NCBI GenBank assembly: GCA_016234935.1
Contig: JACRNL010000005.1
Coordinates: 124,001 to 188,000, forward strand
Direction of reading: 5' to 3'
DNA: 64,000 bases
From: Deltaproteobacteria bacterium
GTDB lineage: Bacteria; Desulfobacterota; GWC2-55-46
Each line of letters starts with the position of its first letter. Positions within the stretch are counted from its first letter, which is position 1. This document shows, piece by piece, positions 9,141 to 60,637 of this stretch. The position numbers and the translations under genes are program-made. The notes below the pieces were generated by a model. That model made no database searches, was not told where the DNA came from, and was given only the letters and a program-made list of their open reading frames with translations.

Positions 9141-10403
9141 TCAGGCGGAGCGTCTTTTTGTCCTTTTATCCTGCATCAGAAACCAGTCAATGATGCCGCC
9201 TATGGTCACGATGCCGACGATCTCCCCTTCACCGCTTACGACGGGGATGGCGACGAGAGAATACTTCGCCATCTTCTCGGCAACCGCCTTTTCTTTGACG
9301 TCCGGCGCGACGGTCTTCAGGTCATGCTCCATTATGTCCTCAAGGCGCGCGTCCGGCGCGGCGAGGATGAGCTCTTTGAGCGTGACGACCCCGAGGAGCT
9401 TTTCACCCGCGTCAATGACGTAGATGTATTTGGCGTCCTGTATCTCCAGCACGTCCTCCCTGAACTTCACAAACACCTCTTTTACCGACAGGCCTGGATG
9501 ATACGCGAGGTATTCGTTCGTCATCATGCCGCCGGCGGTGTCCTCCTCGTAGCCGAGCAGCTCCTGGATGCTCTGGGCCTCTTCCCGCTCGACGTTTTCA
9601 AGTATCTCCTTTGCCCTTTCCGTAGGCATGTTGTTAAGAACGTCGGCGGCCTCGTTCGGCGACATCTCCTCGATGATGTCAGACGCCCTGGCGGTTTCTA
9701 TCTGGTTCAGTATCTCCACCTGCATCTCCGGCCCAAGCTCGGAGATGGTATCGGCGGCGGTCTCTATGTCAAGGTCGTTGATGATGCCGCCGCCCTCCTC
9801 CCTCGAAACCTGGCTTATTATCTCCGCGAGGTCCGCCGGATGAAGCTCGGATACGTTCTGGCGCGCCACGGTCAGGGTGATGGCTTTGAGTTCCGGCTTC
9901 AGCGGCTGGAGGTAGTTCCACGTTATGAGGTTTTGCGGGAGCCTGGCGGTGAAGAAGTTAAAGACCTCTTCGCTCCACCTCTCGACGCCCAGGCGCCTTA
10001 ATATGCCGCGAAGCCCCACGTCAACGGAGAGCAGCACGGCGCTTGCGCCGTAACCCTCGAGCTTTATGTCGTTCACGCGGACTATCTTCACGCCGTTGAT
10101 GTCGACTATCTGCTTGTCGAGTATGTCCCTGACGGTCAGCAGATCCTTTTTATTTTGCTCATACGGCGATAGCCCGCCGGTGTAGAGCGACGTCGAAATA
10201 ATGCGCTTGTTGAAGATATTTACGGCGTCCCACTTGATCTCGAAAAGCTTTTTCTTCCTTTTGATGATGAGCGAATGCACCTTCGGCAGCGGCTCGCCCT
10301 TTACGACGACGACGTCCATGACCCTGCCTATGACCTCGCCCCTGGGGTCAAAGACGGATTTTGAAAGTATCTCGCTTAAAAAAATCTCTCCAAAAAGCGC
10401 CAT
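9141..10403 (-). CDS. Soluble PRC-barrel / MgtE-N / tandem CBS protein, probable gating subunit
   Basis: 420 aa with no membrane segment. In order: one or two PRC-barrel-like beta regions (residues about 1-160); an MgtE N-terminal helical repeat domain with HPADLAEII near 188 and MSPNEAADVL; the connector EEDTAGGMMTNEYLA, as in MgtE; and two CBS domains to about residue 410. In the MgtE channel the N and CBS domains bind cytosolic Mg2+ and close the pore. Here these domains exist without the pore and sit upstream of an Nramp-related transporter in the same operon. The likely role is control of that transporter by cytosolic Mg2+ or nucleotides (inference). Confidence 0.88.
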   Translation of the reverse strand: MALFGEIFLSEILSKSVFDPRGEVIGRVMDVVVVKGEPLPKVHSLIIKRKKKLFEIKWDAVNIFNKRIISTSLYTGGLSPYEQNKKDLLTVRDILDKQIVDINGVKIVRVNDIKLEGYGASAVLLSVDVGLRGILRRLGVERWSEEVFNFFTARLPQNLITWNYLQPLKPELKAITLTVARQNVSELHPADLAEIISQVSREEGGGIINDLDIETAADTISELGPEMQVEILNQIETARASDIIEEMSPNEAADVLNNMPTERAKEILENVEREEAQSIQELLGYEEDTAGGMMTNEYLAYHPGLSVKEVFVKFREDVLEIQDAKYIYVIDAGEKLLGVVTLKELILAAPDARLEDIMEHDLKTVAPDVKEKAVAEKMAKYSLVAIPVVSGEGEIVGIVTIGGIIDWFLMQDKRTKRRSA

Positions 10404-10500
10404 GGCAACGGTTTCTCCGGTTTTTCCTCTTCCCTTCGCCCCATAAGAGGCGGTACTGGCAAAGTTTACATTACTTTTTTAAATTTTTTAATTATACTAT
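10404..10500 (-). promoter_or_regulatory. AT-rich promoter region of the MgtE-like/transporter operon
   Basis: On the minus strand the 90 bp before the start are AT-rich, with a possible GGAG Shine-Dalgarno 16 nt ahead of the ATG and a TATAAT-like stretch inside the inverted repeat listed next. No M-box or other riboswitch fold is recognised. Confidence 0.4.
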
Positions 10501-10510
10501 TTTTAGTATA
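10493..10510. promoter_or_regulatory. Candidate operator: TATACTA-n4-TAGTATA
   Basis: Perfect 7-bp arms with a 4-nt spacer, about 90-107 bp upstream of the MgtE-like gene start, overlapping a TATAAT-like box. The size and symmetry fit a dimeric metal- or redox-responsive repressor. The regulator is not identified. Confidence 0.4.
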
Positions 10511-10548
10511 TCAAAAACCAGAGGTCAGGGCGGTTTTTATTTGGACGT

Positions 10549-10613
10549 CCTTAAAAAAACATGGGGGAACTTTCTTCAGAAAGTTCCCCTTGAAGGGGCT
10601 CAGCCCCCATGTC
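10549..10613. repeat. Hairpin GGGGGAACTTTC/GAAAGTTCCCC plus noncoding G/C palindrome
   Basis: A stem of GGGAACTTTC and GAAAGTTCCC (about 10565-10588) runs straight into CCCCTTGAAGGGGCTCAGCC (10586-10605), an intergenic copy of the element found inside genes. This shows that the in-gene palindrome also exists outside genes. Confidence 0.7.
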
Positions 10614-10630
10614 TCCTTGCGCGAGGAATT

Positions 10631-10774
10631 AAAGTTTTTTGGCCGCCTGCAATGGAGCAAAGCTAAATGGTTGGATTTAGGCTTTAGCCGTGCGCAGCAC
10701 CTGCGGTGAGCAAAGCTAAAGGGGTGTATTTTGACCTTAGCCGTGCGCAGCACCTTTTTTTCAAAAAAGGCAAG
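10631..10774 (+). repeat. Modular family-2 repeat with two 53-bp units
   Basis: The frame AAAGTTTTTTGGCC...TTTTTTTCAAAAAAGGCAAG encloses two units of the type GAGCAAAGCTAAA...TTAGCCGTGCGCAGCACC. Each unit has a short variable centre flanked by complementary CTAAA/TTTAG arms. It fills much of the 411-bp gap 10404-10814, which has no gene. Confidence 0.75.
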
Positions 10775-10814
10775 TTTTCAAAAAACCTTCTCTCATGTCT
10801 TTCGCTTCATACCG

Positions 10815-11165
10815 CTAAAACACCATTACCTGGCCGCCTTCGCTTATCCAGCGGGCAAGGTCTATTGTCTTGCCGACAACCGCGCCCGGGACGAAGTCGT
10901 CCTGCGTCAAACCCCTTGCGCTCGTGCAGGTGAGGCAGGAGCGAACCTCGACCCCTTTTTCAATGAGGCCGGCCAGCATCTCGCCTGTATTGTAGTAGCC
11001 GTGCGGAGGCGACTGCCCTTTTTTAGCGGCCGCCACGCTGTCTCCGTAAAGAAATATTCTGACCTTCGACCCGGCGACCAGAAGCGCCTGCGAAAGCCGG
11101 AGCGCATTCCACACCTTCTCATTGCCGTAAGGCGCGTCCTGCAGCACTATCGTTACCATGTTCAT
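10815..11165 (-). CDS. DsrE/DsrF-family sulfur-relay-like protein
   Basis: A small cytoplasmic protein of 116 aa with the DsrE fold: VTIVLQDAPYGNEKVWNALRL at the start and SCLTCTSARG with two cysteines near residue 78, where DsrE-type sulfur carriers hold their active cysteine. AAAGGAG lies 9 nt before the ATG. No other dsr or tus gene is nearby, so the partner is unknown. It could carry persulfide sulfur for tRNA or cofactor synthesis, or be one of the many uncharacterised DsrE-like proteins. Confidence 0.75.
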   Translation of the reverse strand: MNMVTIVLQDAPYGNEKVWNALRLSQALLVAGSKVRIFLYGDSVAAAKKGQSPPHGYYNTGEMLAGLIEKGVEVRSCLTCTSARGLTQDDFVPGAVVGKTIDLARWISEGGQVMVF

Positions 11166-11277
11166 GCCCGTTCTCCTTTCAAGCCGTATTGGGAAAATAT
11201 AATTGCATAACTGCGACCATTGTAAGGCTTTTCTGTGCCGCCTTTACACGGAGGCGAAAAATTGTTATTATTTTAAA

Positions 11278-11691
11278 ATGAAAAAGAACCTTAAATACGG
11301 AGCAAAGGCCGTAAAAAAGAGCCGCCTTGAGGCATGGCCGAACCCAAACCCTGAAAGGGATTATACCATAGAAATAAGCTGCCCGGAGTTCACCTGCGTC
11401 TGTCCGCGTTCAGGATACCCGGACTTCGCCGAGGTGCGCCTGACCTACGTTCCTGATAAGTCGGTAGTCGAGCTTAAATCCTTAAAACTCTACTTGAACT
11501 CCTTCCGCGACAGGGCCGTATCTCACGAGGCGGCTATAAACATCATCTTTAGCGACCTTCAAAAACTCCTCAAACCGAGAAAGATGGAGGTCTGCGGCGA
11601 CTTCAACGTCCGCGGCAACGTCAAGACGGTCATAAAGGTCGGGTTGCAGGGGAAAGAGCCGAGCGGGGCAAGAGTTGCTGTTGAAGGCTGA
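11278..11691 (+). CDS. queF: NADPH-dependent 7-cyano-7-deazaguanine reductase
   Basis: It reduces preQ0 to preQ1 in queuosine biosynthesis. Seen: [19 protein letters not shown] with the active-site cysteine, and [15 protein letters not shown], the QueF signature. This is the short (YkvM, about 137 aa) unimodular form. The frame is open from 11203, but the ATG at 11278 gives the usual N-terminus. GGAGG at 11250-11254 is rather far upstream. FolE2, which supplies the pathway precursor, is at 42951-43727. Confidence 0.93.
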
Positions 11692-11719
11692 TTTTTTCAG
11701 TTATCACTTCTTTTTTCTG

Positions 11720-11830
11720 TCATCCCCGAATGACAAAACGCATCAAACCGCCGCTTCAGCCAGCCCCCGAATGTTTCTATCGGGGGATATGCGAGGGCAG
11801 GCACGCAGGGGTTGAACCCCTTCAAGGGGC
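11720..11830. repeat. Intergenic repeats: CCCCGA..TCGGGG palindrome and G/C palindrome
   Basis: CATCCCCGAATGAC and CCCCCGAATGTTTCTATCGGGGG (about 11722-11787) belong to a family also seen near 23.6, 29.7, 34.1, 60.0 and 62.6 kb. At 11807-11830 an intergenic copy of the GGGGTTGAACCCC element follows. The region is convergent between queF and the response regulator gene. Confidence 0.65.
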
Positions 11831-11849
11831 AGGCTGGAATGACGTCTCA

Positions 11850-50968: not shown

Positions 50969-50992
50969 CTCAAATCTTGCCCTCATTTGCCC

Positions 50993-51097
50993 GTAGTGCG
51001 AGGCCTTAGCCTCGCTTCCCCGCTTAAAACCTGCGGGGACATGGTTTTACAGCACTCTTGCCTGATTGCAACAAGCTCGGTAGAAGCCTCGCACTAC
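50993..51097. repeat. 105-bp GTAGTGCGAGGC palindromic repeat (copy 1)
   Basis: Arms GTAGTGCGAGGC/GCCTCGCACTAC enclose GCGAGGC...GCCTCGC and CCCCGC..GCGGGG hairpins. A second copy of the same length, about 90% alike, is at 60335-60439. Confidence 0.88.
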
Positions 51098-51155
51098 GAA
51101 CCTCTCCCCCGCCGCCTCAGTCGTAGAAACAGGTCTTCAGACCTGTTATCCGCCA

Positions 51156-52445
51156 TTATTTTTCAAATTCCTCGAACATTTTTTTTTCGAGCATACGGTA
51201 GCTCAGCGCTTCCTTGAACAGGCCGTAGTTTTCCCAGATTTCTTCTTTGCCATGGTACTTGTCCGGGTATATCCGGTAGTGGCCCCTGTATTTTTCAGGG
51301 GTAAGATTGAACATCAATGAATTGGCGCCGGAGGACAGTCCGAGCCTTCTTCCCTCCTCGCTCTCTATCGTCTCAAGGGCGGTTGTCACGGGTATCTTCG
51401 CCTTCGGCATGAAGAGCCTTGAAACGGCCGTGACCTTCAGGGCCATTTGCGCGCTTCCCGCGGGATGTCCGGCAAGCGGGGTGGACTGGCAGGGGATGAA
51501 CGGGCCGACAGAAACCATATTCGCGCCAAGCTCCTTCATTGTGATTATATCTTCGGCTATTGCCTCTTCCGTCTGGCCGGGAAGGCCGATGAGGAAGCCT
51601 GACGCAAGGTAGTAGCCGAGCTTTTTTATCCCTTTTAAAAGCTCAAGCCTCTTGTCAAGTAACTGCCCTGGATGGATGGAGTCATACAAGGCGCGGTTTG
51701 AAGTTTCAAAGCGCATAAGCGCCCCGCTTGCCCCGGCGGCCTTCATCCTAACGTAGCATTCAAGGCTGCGTTCGCCCACGCTCATGAAGACAAATACCCT
51801 GCAAATCTTTTTTATCCTGACGATTATATCTGCGAGCATATCATCGGTATAATAAAAATCGTCGCCGGACTGAAGGACTATGAGTTTGTATCCGCGCCTA
51901 TTGACGGCGTCGCCTGCCGTTTCCGCTATCTCGTCCGGCGTCATCCTGTAACGCCTGACGTCCGCAGAGCCTTTTCTCAAGCCGCAGTAAAAGCAGTCCC
52001 TCACGCAGTGGTTTGAAAATTCGACTATCCCGTGTATGCAGAAAAAATCCTTCAGATGGGCCTGCCTTACCGTATTGGCCTCGGCAAAAAGGGTTTCAAG
52101 CTCCAGCGGGTCTTCGGTCTTTAAAAGCCTTATAATATTCTCTTTCGAAAGCCCGCCTGCGGCGTGGCTTTTTAACAGTTCCAGAAACTCCCTGTCTAAC
52201 CTTGAAACGTCTATGTGGCCTTTTGGCTCAAGCAGGGCTAATATCTCACCGGCGTCTGTTTGGCTTATCCTGCGTATGGCGACGTCATAGGCGCACAGCA
52301 CCCAGTCCCCTGCCTTGAGGCCGGGCAATTCCACAGCCTGTATCTTACGGACGCCGCCCGAACCTTCGACGGTAATATCCGCAACAGATGAACCTGCGAC
52401 AGAATTTTCTACTGATAACACCTTTGCCGGAATCGTCAGGCACAT
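51156..52445 (-). CDS. hydE: HypC-HydE fusion: hydrogenase maturation chaperone domain joined to radical SAM maturase
   Basis: 429 aa. Residues 1-75 are a complete HypC/HupF domain: MCLTIPAKVLSVE with the essential Cys2, and GDWVLCAYDVAIRRISQTDA. From about residue 90 a HydE-type radical SAM enzyme follows: VEFSNHCVRDCFYCGLR (CxxxCxxC), QSGDDFYY, SGFLIGLPGQTEE and SVGPFIPCQSTPL. HypC normally carries the Fe(CN)2CO unit for [NiFe] hydrogenases; HydE works in [FeFe] H-cluster assembly. The join is seamless, with no stop or frameshift. The neighbour hydG supports the HydE role. HydE and PylB are related; the hydG context favours HydE. Confidence 0.9.
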   Translation of the reverse strand: MCLTIPAKVLSVENSVAGSSVADITVEGSGGVRKIQAVELPGLKAGDWVLCAYDVAIRRISQTDAGEILALLEPKGHIDVSRLDREFLELLKSHAAGGLSKENIIRLLKTEDPLELETLFAEANTVRQAHLKDFFCIHGIVEFSNHCVRDCFYCGLRKGSADVRRYRMTPDEIAETAGDAVNRRGYKLIVLQSGDDFYYTDDMLADIIVRIKKICRVFVFMSVGERSLECYVRMKAAGASGALMRFETSNRALYDSIHPGQLLDKRLELLKGIKKLGYYLASGFLIGLPGQTEEAIAEDIITMKELGANMVSVGPFIPCQSTPLAGHPAGSAQMALKVTAVSRLFMPKAKIPVTTALETIESEEGRRLGLSSGANSLMFNLTPEKYRGHYRIYPDKYHGKEEIWENYGLFKEALSYRMLEKKMFEEFEK

Positions 52446-52778: not shown

Positions 52779-53576
52779 ATGAAACAGGCCTTTTTATATC
52801 TTACAGCCCTGTCGCTTGCGTGCATACTTTTGCCGTCATTATGCAATGCCGAGATATACAAGTACGTTGACAAAAACGGGACTGTCATCATGGTGGACGA
52901 CGTGACGAAGGTCCCTGAAGCCTACCGCGGCCAGATGGAAGTGAGCGGCGGCCGTCGCAGCAAGGAAAGGCCGGCCACGGCCCTGCCAACGCAGGCTGAC
53001 TCGCAAAAACTGCTTAAAAACCTCACTGCCGAACCGTCAGCTCCGGTTGCAGGGGTCGAGCCCCTTGAAGGGGTTCAACCCCCGAAAGACGAAACCAGAC
53101 CCGCCGCCTTAATGCGGCGAATTTCCGCGGCCCTTGACAAGCCCGGCCTTGGCGTCGGATTAAAAATCATTATCGTTGTTATAGCCGCAATAGCCGCGTT
53201 TCTCGTTATAGGCAGGGCCGCCGAGACGGTTGAAGCGAAAAAGGCCGGCGTCCTCATCTGCATACTTTTGATAGGCGCGGTCTCGGTCTTTCTTTTCAGG
53301 GTGTCCGCGCAAAAGGCCGCGGACAGGATAGCCGCCGTGATGAAAAACGTTCGAGGCATTCAGGGGAAGCTGCAAGGGCGGACGGAAACGGCCCGGACAA
53401 TCGAAAATGAATTTAAGGGCGAACCCGGCCCAGCGCCGCCGAGTCTGCCGGGCCAGACGGACACAGCCCGGATGAACGATAATGACCTTTTGAAAGAACC
53501 GGACGCCGCGGCATTGAATGCAGCGCCGGGCGAAGAAAAGATCACCTTAACAATGCCGCTACCGCCCAGAGATTGA
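52779..53576 (+). CDS. DUF4124-domain exported/membrane protein
   Basis: 265 aa. Signal peptide (FLYLTALSLACILLPSLCNA) followed at once by the DUF4124 motif EIYKYVDKNGTVIMVDD. Further on there are two hydrophobic segments (about 130-150 and 160-178) and a charged, low-complexity C-terminus. Function unknown; the N-terminal domain is common in periplasmic proteins. The start at 52779 follows GGAG; the frame is open earlier. Residues AGVEPLEGVQPPKD derive from a palindromic insertion (53051-53083). The 3' end overlaps the convergent Nramp gene by 18 bp. Confidence 0.85.
   Translation: MKQAFLYLTALSLACILLPSLCNAEIYKYVDKNGTVIMVDDVTKVPEAYRGQMEVSGGRRSKERPATALPTQADSQKLLKNLTAEPSAPVAGVEPLEGVQPPKDETRPAALMRRISAALDKPGLGVGLKIIIVVIAAIAAFLVIGRAAETVEAKKAGVLICILLIGAVSVFLFRVSAQKAADRIAAVMKNVRGIQGKLQGRTETARTIENEFKGEPGPAPPSLPGQTDTARMNDNDLLKEPDAAALNAAPGEEKITLTMPLPPRD
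53051..53083 (+). repeat. In-gene G/C palindrome (copy 10) in DUF4124 protein
   Basis: Nearly two modules, read as GVEPLEG-VQPPK in the linker between the DUF4124 domain and the membrane segments. Confidence 0.9.
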
Positions 53577-54896
53577 CATTGACAGTGACAACAGAAGCAG
53601 ATTGACCGCTCCGGGCCTTACGGTATCCGCCAAGAGCAGCGCGTTCAAAAAAACCGCGACGCCCGCCGAAGTCCAGAGGAGCGTATTTTCCAGCCACGCG
53701 GTTTTAAACTGCCCCATGACCCGTTTGGATGACGTCAATATTATGAGAGGCAGCACGGTCAGCGGAAGCTGAATGCTCAATACCACCTGACTCCAGATGA
53801 GGGCGTTAAAGGCGTCTGAAATCAGGAAAACAAAAAAGAGCGCGCTGATAAGCGTAATGAGCGCGCCTGTGCGCGAATGGCTGTCCTTCAGGTCAAGCGG
53901 TTCGCCGAACATCCCGGCAAAGATGCTCGCCCCGGCCATGGCCGCCGTGACAGACGACGAAAGGCCGGACAGAAGAAGGGCAAAGGCAAAGACCGTCGCG
54001 GCCAGAGAACCGAGAAAGGGCTTTAGCGTCACGTGCGCCTCGGTCAGCGTGGAGATGGTCAGCCCGTTGGAATAAAAGACCGCCGCCGCGACCAGCATCA
54101 TCGCGCTGTTTATAACCCAGCCCGCGCTCATGGCCGAGAGCGTGTCGAGAAACTCATATTTAAGCCTCTTTTTCATCACCTCCGCGCCCTCAAGGTTCCA
54201 CTGCCTGCTTTGGATTATCTCGGAATGCAAAAATATATTATGCGGCATAACGACCGCCCCTAAAACGCTCATAAGCACGGGCAAAGACCCGGCGGGGATG
54301 GACGGGACTGCCCAGTTTCGAAAAGCCCCGCCTGCGCCGAGCCATTCCACCTTGACAAGTAAAAGCTCAAATATAAAACTTATCCCGATAAGCGCCACAA
54401 AGGCGATTATCCATCTTTCTATCTTCTTATAGCTGTTTGAAAACACCATAAAGCCCGTGAACGCGGCGGCAAAGACCGCGCCCACGGCAAGGGGCGCGCC
54501 GGTGAGCATATTTATCCCTATGGCCGCGCCTAATAGCTCCGCAAACGCCGTAGCCGCAGACGCGCCGACCGCGCTGAGGAGTATGACTCTACTCGTCCAT
54601 TTGCCGAAAAACTTTGCGCAAGCCTCGGCAAGACAAAGCCCTGTGACTATCCCTAAATGGGCCGCATTATGCTGTATGACGATGAGCATGAGCGTCCCGA
54701 GCGAAACCACCCAGAGAAACTTATACCCATACACCGACCCCGCCGCCATATTAGCCGCCCAGTTGCCCGGGTCAATGAAGCCAACGGTCACGATGAACCC
54801 CGGCCCGATATACCTCAAAAGCTCCAGCCCGCCGAGCTTTGGGGTGTGATTGGCGAAGATGTTTTTTATTTTAACGAGGTTTTTTTGGTGGAACAT
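53559..54896 (-). CDS. Canonical Nramp-family Mn2+/Fe2+ transporter
   Basis: 445 aa, about 11 membrane segments. The TM1 metal site is FIDPGNWA and TM6 has VVMPHNIFLHS, both canonical, so Mn2+ and Fe2+ are the expected substrates, driven by protons. QHNAAHLGIVTG is also conserved. It contrasts with the DAGG/APW paralogue at 7869-9092. No regulator is adjacent. Confidence 0.94.
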   Translation of the reverse strand: MFHQKNLVKIKNIFANHTPKLGGLELLRYIGPGFIVTVGFIDPGNWAANMAAGSVYGYKFLWVVSLGTLMLIVIQHNAAHLGIVTGLCLAEACAKFFGKWTSRVILLSAVGASAATAFAELLGAAIGINMLTGAPLAVGAVFAAAFTGFMVFSNSYKKIERWIIAFVALIGISFIFELLLVKVEWLGAGGAFRNWAVPSIPAGSLPVLMSVLGAVVMPHNIFLHSEIIQSRQWNLEGAEVMKKRLKYEFLDTLSAMSAGWVINSAMMLVAAAVFYSNGLTISTLTEAHVTLKPFLGSLAATVFAFALLLSGLSSSVTAAMAGASIFAGMFGEPLDLKDSHSRTGALITLISALFFVFLISDAFNALIWSQVVLSIQLPLTVLPLIILTSSKRVMGQFKTAWLENTLLWTSAGVAVFLNALLLADTVRPGAVNLLLLSLSMSISGR

Positions 54897-59891: not shown

Positions 59892-60637
59892 AAAAAAAAT
59901 CCTGTGTGCGATTAAAACAGCAAACCCGAAATCAGAAATTAACACATCAAAGGGGATTGGTCAATATCGCGCCCTCCGCAGGGATGGGCAAGGCTTTGGT
60001 TTCAGGCCTGCCCTCGCATGTTAGAAGCTGGGGGGGGTTTTAATCGGGAATCTAAAACCATATCCCCGATAGAAACATTCGAGGATGACAGCCCGATAGC
60101 GAAGTAGGGTGGGCACAGCCCACCATTTACAGGAGCGAGTAGCTATTTTGGTGGGCGGTGCCCACCCTACGAAACTCAAAAAAAACTCCCCATTCCACCT
60201 TCCTGTATAGGGAGAGGGAATGGGGAATAATGAAAAAAGTGCCGCGCACGGCAAAAGCATGGAATGTTGTCATTCCCGCCTGCCCTCGCGTGTTAGAAGC
60301 GGGGGAGCAAATGTGTTGTCAAGAATCATATATCGTAGTGCGAGGCTTCAGCCTCGCTTCCCCGCTTAAAGCCTGCGGGGACATGGTTTTGCCGCCTCCT
60401 TGCTTGATTGCAGCAAGCTCGATAGAAGTCTCGCACTACGATTTTTTTCTCTTCTCCCCCTGCGGGAGGGCAGGGCGGGGGTGAACCGGCCGCCCTCTCT
60501 CTCCCCGCTTTAAACACACGAGGACAGGCTCGACCCTCTCCCGCGCCTGCCCTTGTGTGTTCCCCGATAGAAACATTCGAGGATGACAGAAAAAAATCCA
60601 CCGCAGGCGCCAGGCGTCGTTAAAGATGATTCCTTGC
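59892..60637. other. 746-bp gene-free region made almost wholly of dispersed repeats
   Basis: It holds a CCTGCCC/GCGGGGG element and CCCCGATAG/GAGGATGACAG palindrome (60008-60092), the 67-bp GTAGGGTGGGCAC repeat (60104-60170, identical to 19822-19888), another CCTGCCC element (60280-60304), the 105-bp GTAGTGCGAGGC repeat (60335-60439), and further C-rich palindromes to 60590. It acts as a sink for every family seen in the window. Confidence 0.8.

Follow-up and report, generated by a model that had tools for sequence, protein, structure and literature searches.

A HypC-HydE fusion encoded beside hydG points to an alternative route of [NiFe]-hydrogenase maturation

Introduction

In the standard route of [NiFe]-hydrogenase maturation, HypC holds the Fe(CN)2CO unit on its Cys2 residue, and the cyanide of the canonical Hyp pathway is derived from carbamoyl phosphate. 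To our knowledge, Fe(CN)2(CO) has been described for all known [NiFe]-hydrogenases. During its assembly the iron is held by HypD C41 together with HypC C2, and cyanide is supplied via HypE (PMC12130793). In [FeFe] systems, HydG cleaves tyrosine to yield [Fe(Cys)(CN)(CO)2]-, and passes this product straight on to HydE, where it is adenosylated and reduced; [Fe2(SH)2(CO)4(CN)2]2- is the product that HydF uses (PMC12752695). A stretch of bacterial DNA of 64,000 nucleotides, hereafter referred to as the window, encodes a HypC domain and HydE in one polypeptide, which raises the question of what kind of metal site such a protein, together with the HydG encoded next to it, helps to build.

Results

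The Fusion Gene and Its Surroundings

The features of the locus, in window coordinates, are as follows:
51156-52445, minus strand, hypC-hydE fusion gene of 429 aa, a single uninterrupted ORF with an ATG start and Cys as residue 2
52230-52445, minus strand, HypC domain, residues 1-72, identified by PF01455, fold and N-terminal invariance
52440-52442, minus strand, Cys2 codon of the HypC domain
51213-52157, minus strand, HydE radical-SAM domain, residues 97-411, identified by TIGR03956 above its cut-off and by structure match
51984-52007, minus strand, CX3CX2C radical-SAM [4Fe-4S] motif, C147/C151/C154
49574-50986, minus strand, hydG of 470 aa (TIGR03955), the next gene downstream of the fusion, in the same orientation

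The preliminary description of this DNA had read the gene as a HypC domain with Cys2 preceding a complete HydE in one frame, which is borne out by the ORF at 51156-52445 and its matches to PF01455 and TIGR03956. The full-length protein is predicted with a pLDDT of 81 and a pTM of 0.83. A gene that by eye encodes an NRAMP-type metal transporter is located upstream on the same strand (window 53559-54896). The spacer between hypC-hydE and hydG contains an element of 107 bp that has inverted ends of 13 bp (CGTAGTGCGAGGC; window 50992-51098), a second copy of which, identical at 95/107 positions, is found at window 60334-60440.

Distribution and Phylogeny of the Fusion

When 84,980 species genomes were scanned for the HypC-HydE fusion, it was identified in 13 further genomes (loci L040-L052; 14 with the window), so that the survey of HydE for N-terminal HypC domains, which had been suggested beforehand, returned a recurrent architecture; no HypC motif occurs in the open frame of any of the 27 ordinary HydEs examined. 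Besides the window's genome, the hosts are Deltaproteobacteria, one genome labeled Proteobacteria (Pseudomonadota), Planctomycetota including a Brocadiaceae, and Patescibacteria (Moranbacteria, Peregrinibacteria and one other genome). All 13 relatives are metagenome assemblies. Within the window's phylum the fusion is present in 3/395 genomes, the window's own genome counted.

In L051 and L052 the contig stops within the fusion gene; 12 full-length fusions were compared. By their HydE parts, the full-length fusions group in a single clade (100/99), separate from 28 ordinary HydEs, and their partner HydGs likewise form one clade (100/98), which suggests that the hypC-hydE/hydG pair moved together. 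hydG directly follows hypC-hydE in the window and in 11/11 loci that show the next gene (L040-L050), with one short ORF separating the two in L045.

The HypC Domain

PF01455 (HupF_HypC) matches residues 1-72 of the fusion with 46.7 bits against a cut-off of 28.5, and with TIGR00074 (HypC, cut-off 48) the window's protein scores 28.6, L043 43.3, L047 58.8 and L048 60.8. When the domain is predicted alone (pLDDT 83.5), its top PDB matches are crystal and NMR structures of HypC, headed by 2z1c (Z 10.4) and including 3vys and 2ot2; the HypC fold expected of the N-terminal domain is thus kept in structure prediction. The first nine residues, MCLTIPAKV, and with them Cys2, are invariant in 14/14 fusions. 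The H-x-G-F motif, the His of which is His45 in T. kodakarensis HypC, is found in every aligned HypC encoded beside HypD, whereas all 14 fusions have it replaced by residues of the x-x-x-D-x-A type. The domain therefore shares Cys2, the MCLxIP start and a small beta-barrel with a C-terminal helix with the HypC/HupF/HybG chaperones (PF01455), but is fused to HydE and encoded in a genome without HypD.

The HydE Part and Its HydG Partner

Residues 97-411 match TIGR03956 (HydE) with a score of 269.1 against the equivalog cut-off of 254.6, and the relatives in L043, L047 and L048 score 271.6, 295.3 and 267.0. The model of the fusion superimposes on T. maritima HydE (7o1o) with a Z of 42 and an rmsd of 2.2 A over 335 residues. 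PylB or another radical-SAM family was considered as the identity of the C-terminal part and rejected (PylB model 158.7 against its own cut-off of 348.2; PylB structure Z 36), so that the assignment to HydE rather than PylB stands on both scores and structure. The fold, the CX3CX2C motif (C63/C67/C70 in T. maritima numbering), Q107, E161, M224, T269, Y306 and the adjacency to hydG are as in HydE. The substrate pocket, in contrast, is altered: T. maritima R54, T134, R155 and G195, which are fixed in 27/27 ordinary HydEs, correspond to H, F, G and A in all full-length fusions (12/12; the first three being H138, F220 and G241 in the window's numbering), and T103, kept in 26/27 ordinary HydEs, is L in 12/12. 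T134 and R155 presumably line the substrate cavity of TmHydE. Together with the N-terminal HypC domain and with genomes that contain no HydA and no HydF above cut-off, these replacements set the protein apart from the HydE maturase of the [FeFe] H-cluster (TIGR03956); taken singly, the fusion protein is a variant of HydE.

The downstream gene matches TIGR03955 with 541 bits against a cut-off of 312. Its product has the auxiliary-cluster cysteines (CTAC...C) and a GPHTIS motif; an insertion of 7 residues lies after the second of these cysteines and before the third. All complete fusion-linked HydGs contain the auxiliary-cluster cysteines (CX2C...C) and GPHT, the His of which we assume to be an iron ligand, as do ordinary HydGs. 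Score, cysteines and GPHT thus resemble the HydG tyrosine lyase of [FeFe] maturation, from which the fusion-tied HydGs differ in forming their own clade and in having no HydF or HydA partner.

Gene Content of the Fusion Genomes

The fusion genomes were searched whole with family models. That of the window is rated 100% complete, and the 13 others are metagenome-assembled and possibly incomplete, so single absences are weak evidence, though the pattern repeats. A [NiFe] large subunit (PF00374) is encoded in 14/14 fusion genomes. HypD gave no match in any of the 14, and neither HypE nor HypF was found above cut-off (0/14 each). Equally, the [FeFe]-hydrogenase catalytic domain of HydA (PF02906) and HydF above cut-off are absent from all 14, hence there is no H-cluster to build. 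Each genome has exactly one HypC, namely the fusion itself. Of the two features asked about in the preliminary description, a [NiFe]-hydrogenase is accordingly always there and a separate hypC never.

Several matches below cut-off were rejected. The three best HypE-like hits, in G396, G399 and G400, score 109-122 bits against a cut-off of 251.6 and were not taken as HypE because the C-terminal PRIC tail is missing. Matches to the HypF model are partial (16-39 bits against a 466-bit cut-off) and are not HypF; judging by the part of the model that is matched, they probably represent acylphosphatase-like, YrdC-like and kinase-like fragments. Matches to the HydF model cover the GTPase domain only and are seen in all control genomes too. 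Among the 14 control genomes, HypD was found in E. coli, Synechococcus, Methanocaldococcus and Methanosarcina, all four of which match PF00374, and four controls have an above-cut-off [NiFe] hit, corresponding in count and in listing to the four with HypD; the search therefore detects ordinary HypD in bacteria and archaea.

[NiFe]-Hydrogenases and Gene Neighborhoods

The large subunits of the fusion genomes have the metal-binding R-I-C-x-x-C and D-P-C/U-x-x-C motifs and usually the A-P/A-R-G and P-T/S motifs, so far as second-shell motifs go with a canonical look. They are very diverse, down to about 18-30% identity, and include a [NiFeSe] large subunit with an in-frame TGA in DP-U-MAC (L041:5699-7252 and following, the same gene as in L068) in a genome without HypD; from this diversity it appears that the route proposed below serves several types of [NiFe]-hydrogenase. 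The window's genome encodes its small and large subunits on a contig other than that of the fusion (G000:C5:136464-138577). Genes that by eye are SelB-like and SelD-like adjoin this hydrogenase (L118:4468-8329), the large subunit of which has Cys at the selenocysteine place despite these neighbors.

Genes for [NiFe] subunits, HypB or a maturation protease lie near the fusion in nine loci (L040, L041, L044-L049 and L051). The order in L048 is hypC-hydE, hydG, small subunit, large subunit, and in L047 it is the same with one extra gene between the subunits. HypB and [NiFe] subunits follow hypC-hydE/hydG in L044 and L045, a protease and HypB are near the fusion in L046, [NiFeSe] subunits and a protease are upstream of it in L041, a homolog of the latter protease is near it in L040, and [NiFe] subunits occur within 10 kb in L049 and L051. 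None of these genes was seen near the fusion in the window, L042 or L043, and L050 and L052 are short contigs.

Discussion

Which Hydrogenase Is Served?

A gene noticed at first sight in one window, all relatives of which come from metagenome assemblies, might be explained as an error of assembly or annotation, or as a chimera in decay. The same architecture, however, recurs in independent assemblies, in 14 genomes from at least four phyla, with an invariant N-terminus, two well-modeled domains and HydE and HydG trees of one clade each, which leaves this explanation with virtually no credit. The family scores of HydE and HydG, both above cut-off, would suit a system that matures an [FeFe]-hydrogenase with HypC as an extra iron carrier, but 14 genomes, one of them rated 100% complete, hold neither a HydA-type domain nor HydF above cut-off, and the fusions differ from ordinary HydE at pocket positions that are fixed in the latter, so that this reading is close to refuted. 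The preliminary description had proposed that the HypC cysteine holds or hands over an iron intermediate in the H-cluster pathway and thereby links two routes usually seen as separate. The link between the two routes stands, but its target is probably not the H-cluster; the flow more likely runs in the reverse direction, with [FeFe]-type maturases feeding the [NiFe] site.

HydG and HypC-HydE might also build some other Fe-CO-CN cofactor, destined for another enzyme, the iron unit of the [NiFe]-hydrogenases then coming from another, undetected route or these enzymes being non-functional. The tie between the products of the fusion locus and the [NiFe]-hydrogenases is a genomic association, and the three loci with no [NiFe] gene near the fusion (the window, L042 and L043) would be in keeping with such a cofactor. 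Against it stand the co-occurrence with [NiFe]-hydrogenases in 14/14 genomes, the location of each genome's sole HypC in the fusion, the [NiFe] subunit, HypB or protease genes adjoining it in nine loci, and the lack of any other recurrent neighbor family that resembles an apo-enzyme. We consider this explanation improbable.

A Proposed Maturation Route

On genomic grounds it is likely that HydG and HypC-HydE constitute an alternative [NiFe]-hydrogenase maturation route, which replaces HypC, HypD, HypE and HypF. The proposal builds on gene architecture, co-occurrence, absences, motif conservation, phylogeny and folds, from which we infer all of its chemistry and the physical delivery. As its conserved motifs suggest, HydG would convert tyrosine to CO and CN- and build a mononuclear Fe(CO)2(CN)-cysteine unit, which would pass to the HydE part of the fusion. 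With its changed pocket, HydE may release a mononuclear iron carbonyl-cyanide rather than a [2Fe] dimer, and the fused HypC would take the iron unit on Cys2 and deliver it to the apo large subunit, so that the fusion would be giver and taker in one chain. Nickel insertion by HypA/HypB and then proteolysis would take the ordinary course. Delivery of CO/CN-ligated iron to the large subunit by the fusion is suggested by genomic association. Compared with canonical HypABCDEF, the putative end product would be alike, namely iron with CO and CN ligands for a [NiFe] large subunit, and HypB and the maturation protease are encoded in several fusion loci; by contrast, HypD is missing, no match above cut-off exists for HypE or HypF, and CN and CO would come from tyrosine via HydG.

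The ligands count against the route, as in the HydG product, Fe(CO)2(CN), a second CO takes the place of the second CN of known [NiFe] sites, Fe(CN)2(CO). Either the ligand count must change by exchange somewhere, or the [NiFe] site is unusual. Since the unit made by HydG is Fe(CO)2(CN), hydrogenases that mature in this way could have two CO and one CN at their [NiFe] site instead of Fe(CN)2(CO). We regard such a site as compatible with the sequences though rather unlikely; a mild argument against it is that the residues which surround the ligands in the large subunits look canonical.

In the open-licence literature, no report was found of HydE or HydG in [NiFe] maturation, nor of [NiFe]-hydrogenases without HypD. 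The component families are known, and the pathway as a system would on the genomic evidence be of a new kind. If the proposal is true, a HypDEF-free route with [FeFe]-type radical-SAM enzymes would show the two organometallic pathways to be interchangeable modules, and fewer genes would be needed to produce [NiFe]-hydrogenases in other hosts. Questions that become testable are whether HydE dimerization depends on the residues changed in the fusions, whether HypC Cys2 is able on its own, without HypD, to bear an Fe-CO-CN unit, and whether a different set of ligands is tolerated at the [NiFe] site.

Related Loci

Relatives of the window's genome, most of them without HydE, encode HydG-like proteins of 450-490 aa (L154-L162), in which the auxiliary-cluster cysteines are present and GPHT is missing. 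In Patescibacteria and a Diapherotrites archaeon, stand-alone HypCs with an MCLTIP start are encoded next to genes for an EamA transporter and for a DUF6390-like protein, at the following positions:
L056:4446-8494, stand-alone HypC locus
L059:5098-9081, stand-alone HypC locus
L060:9415-13606, stand-alone HypC locus
L053:1900-3787, stand-alone HypC locus
L062, around 10001-11837, stand-alone HypC locus

H-x-G-F is absent from those stand-alone HypCs of the L053-L062 loci that were aligned, and within these loci no HypD motif is found. The loci possibly represent another HypD-free arrangement. Those in L056, L059 and L060 also contain HypA-like genes and the genes for both [NiFe] subunits, small and large.
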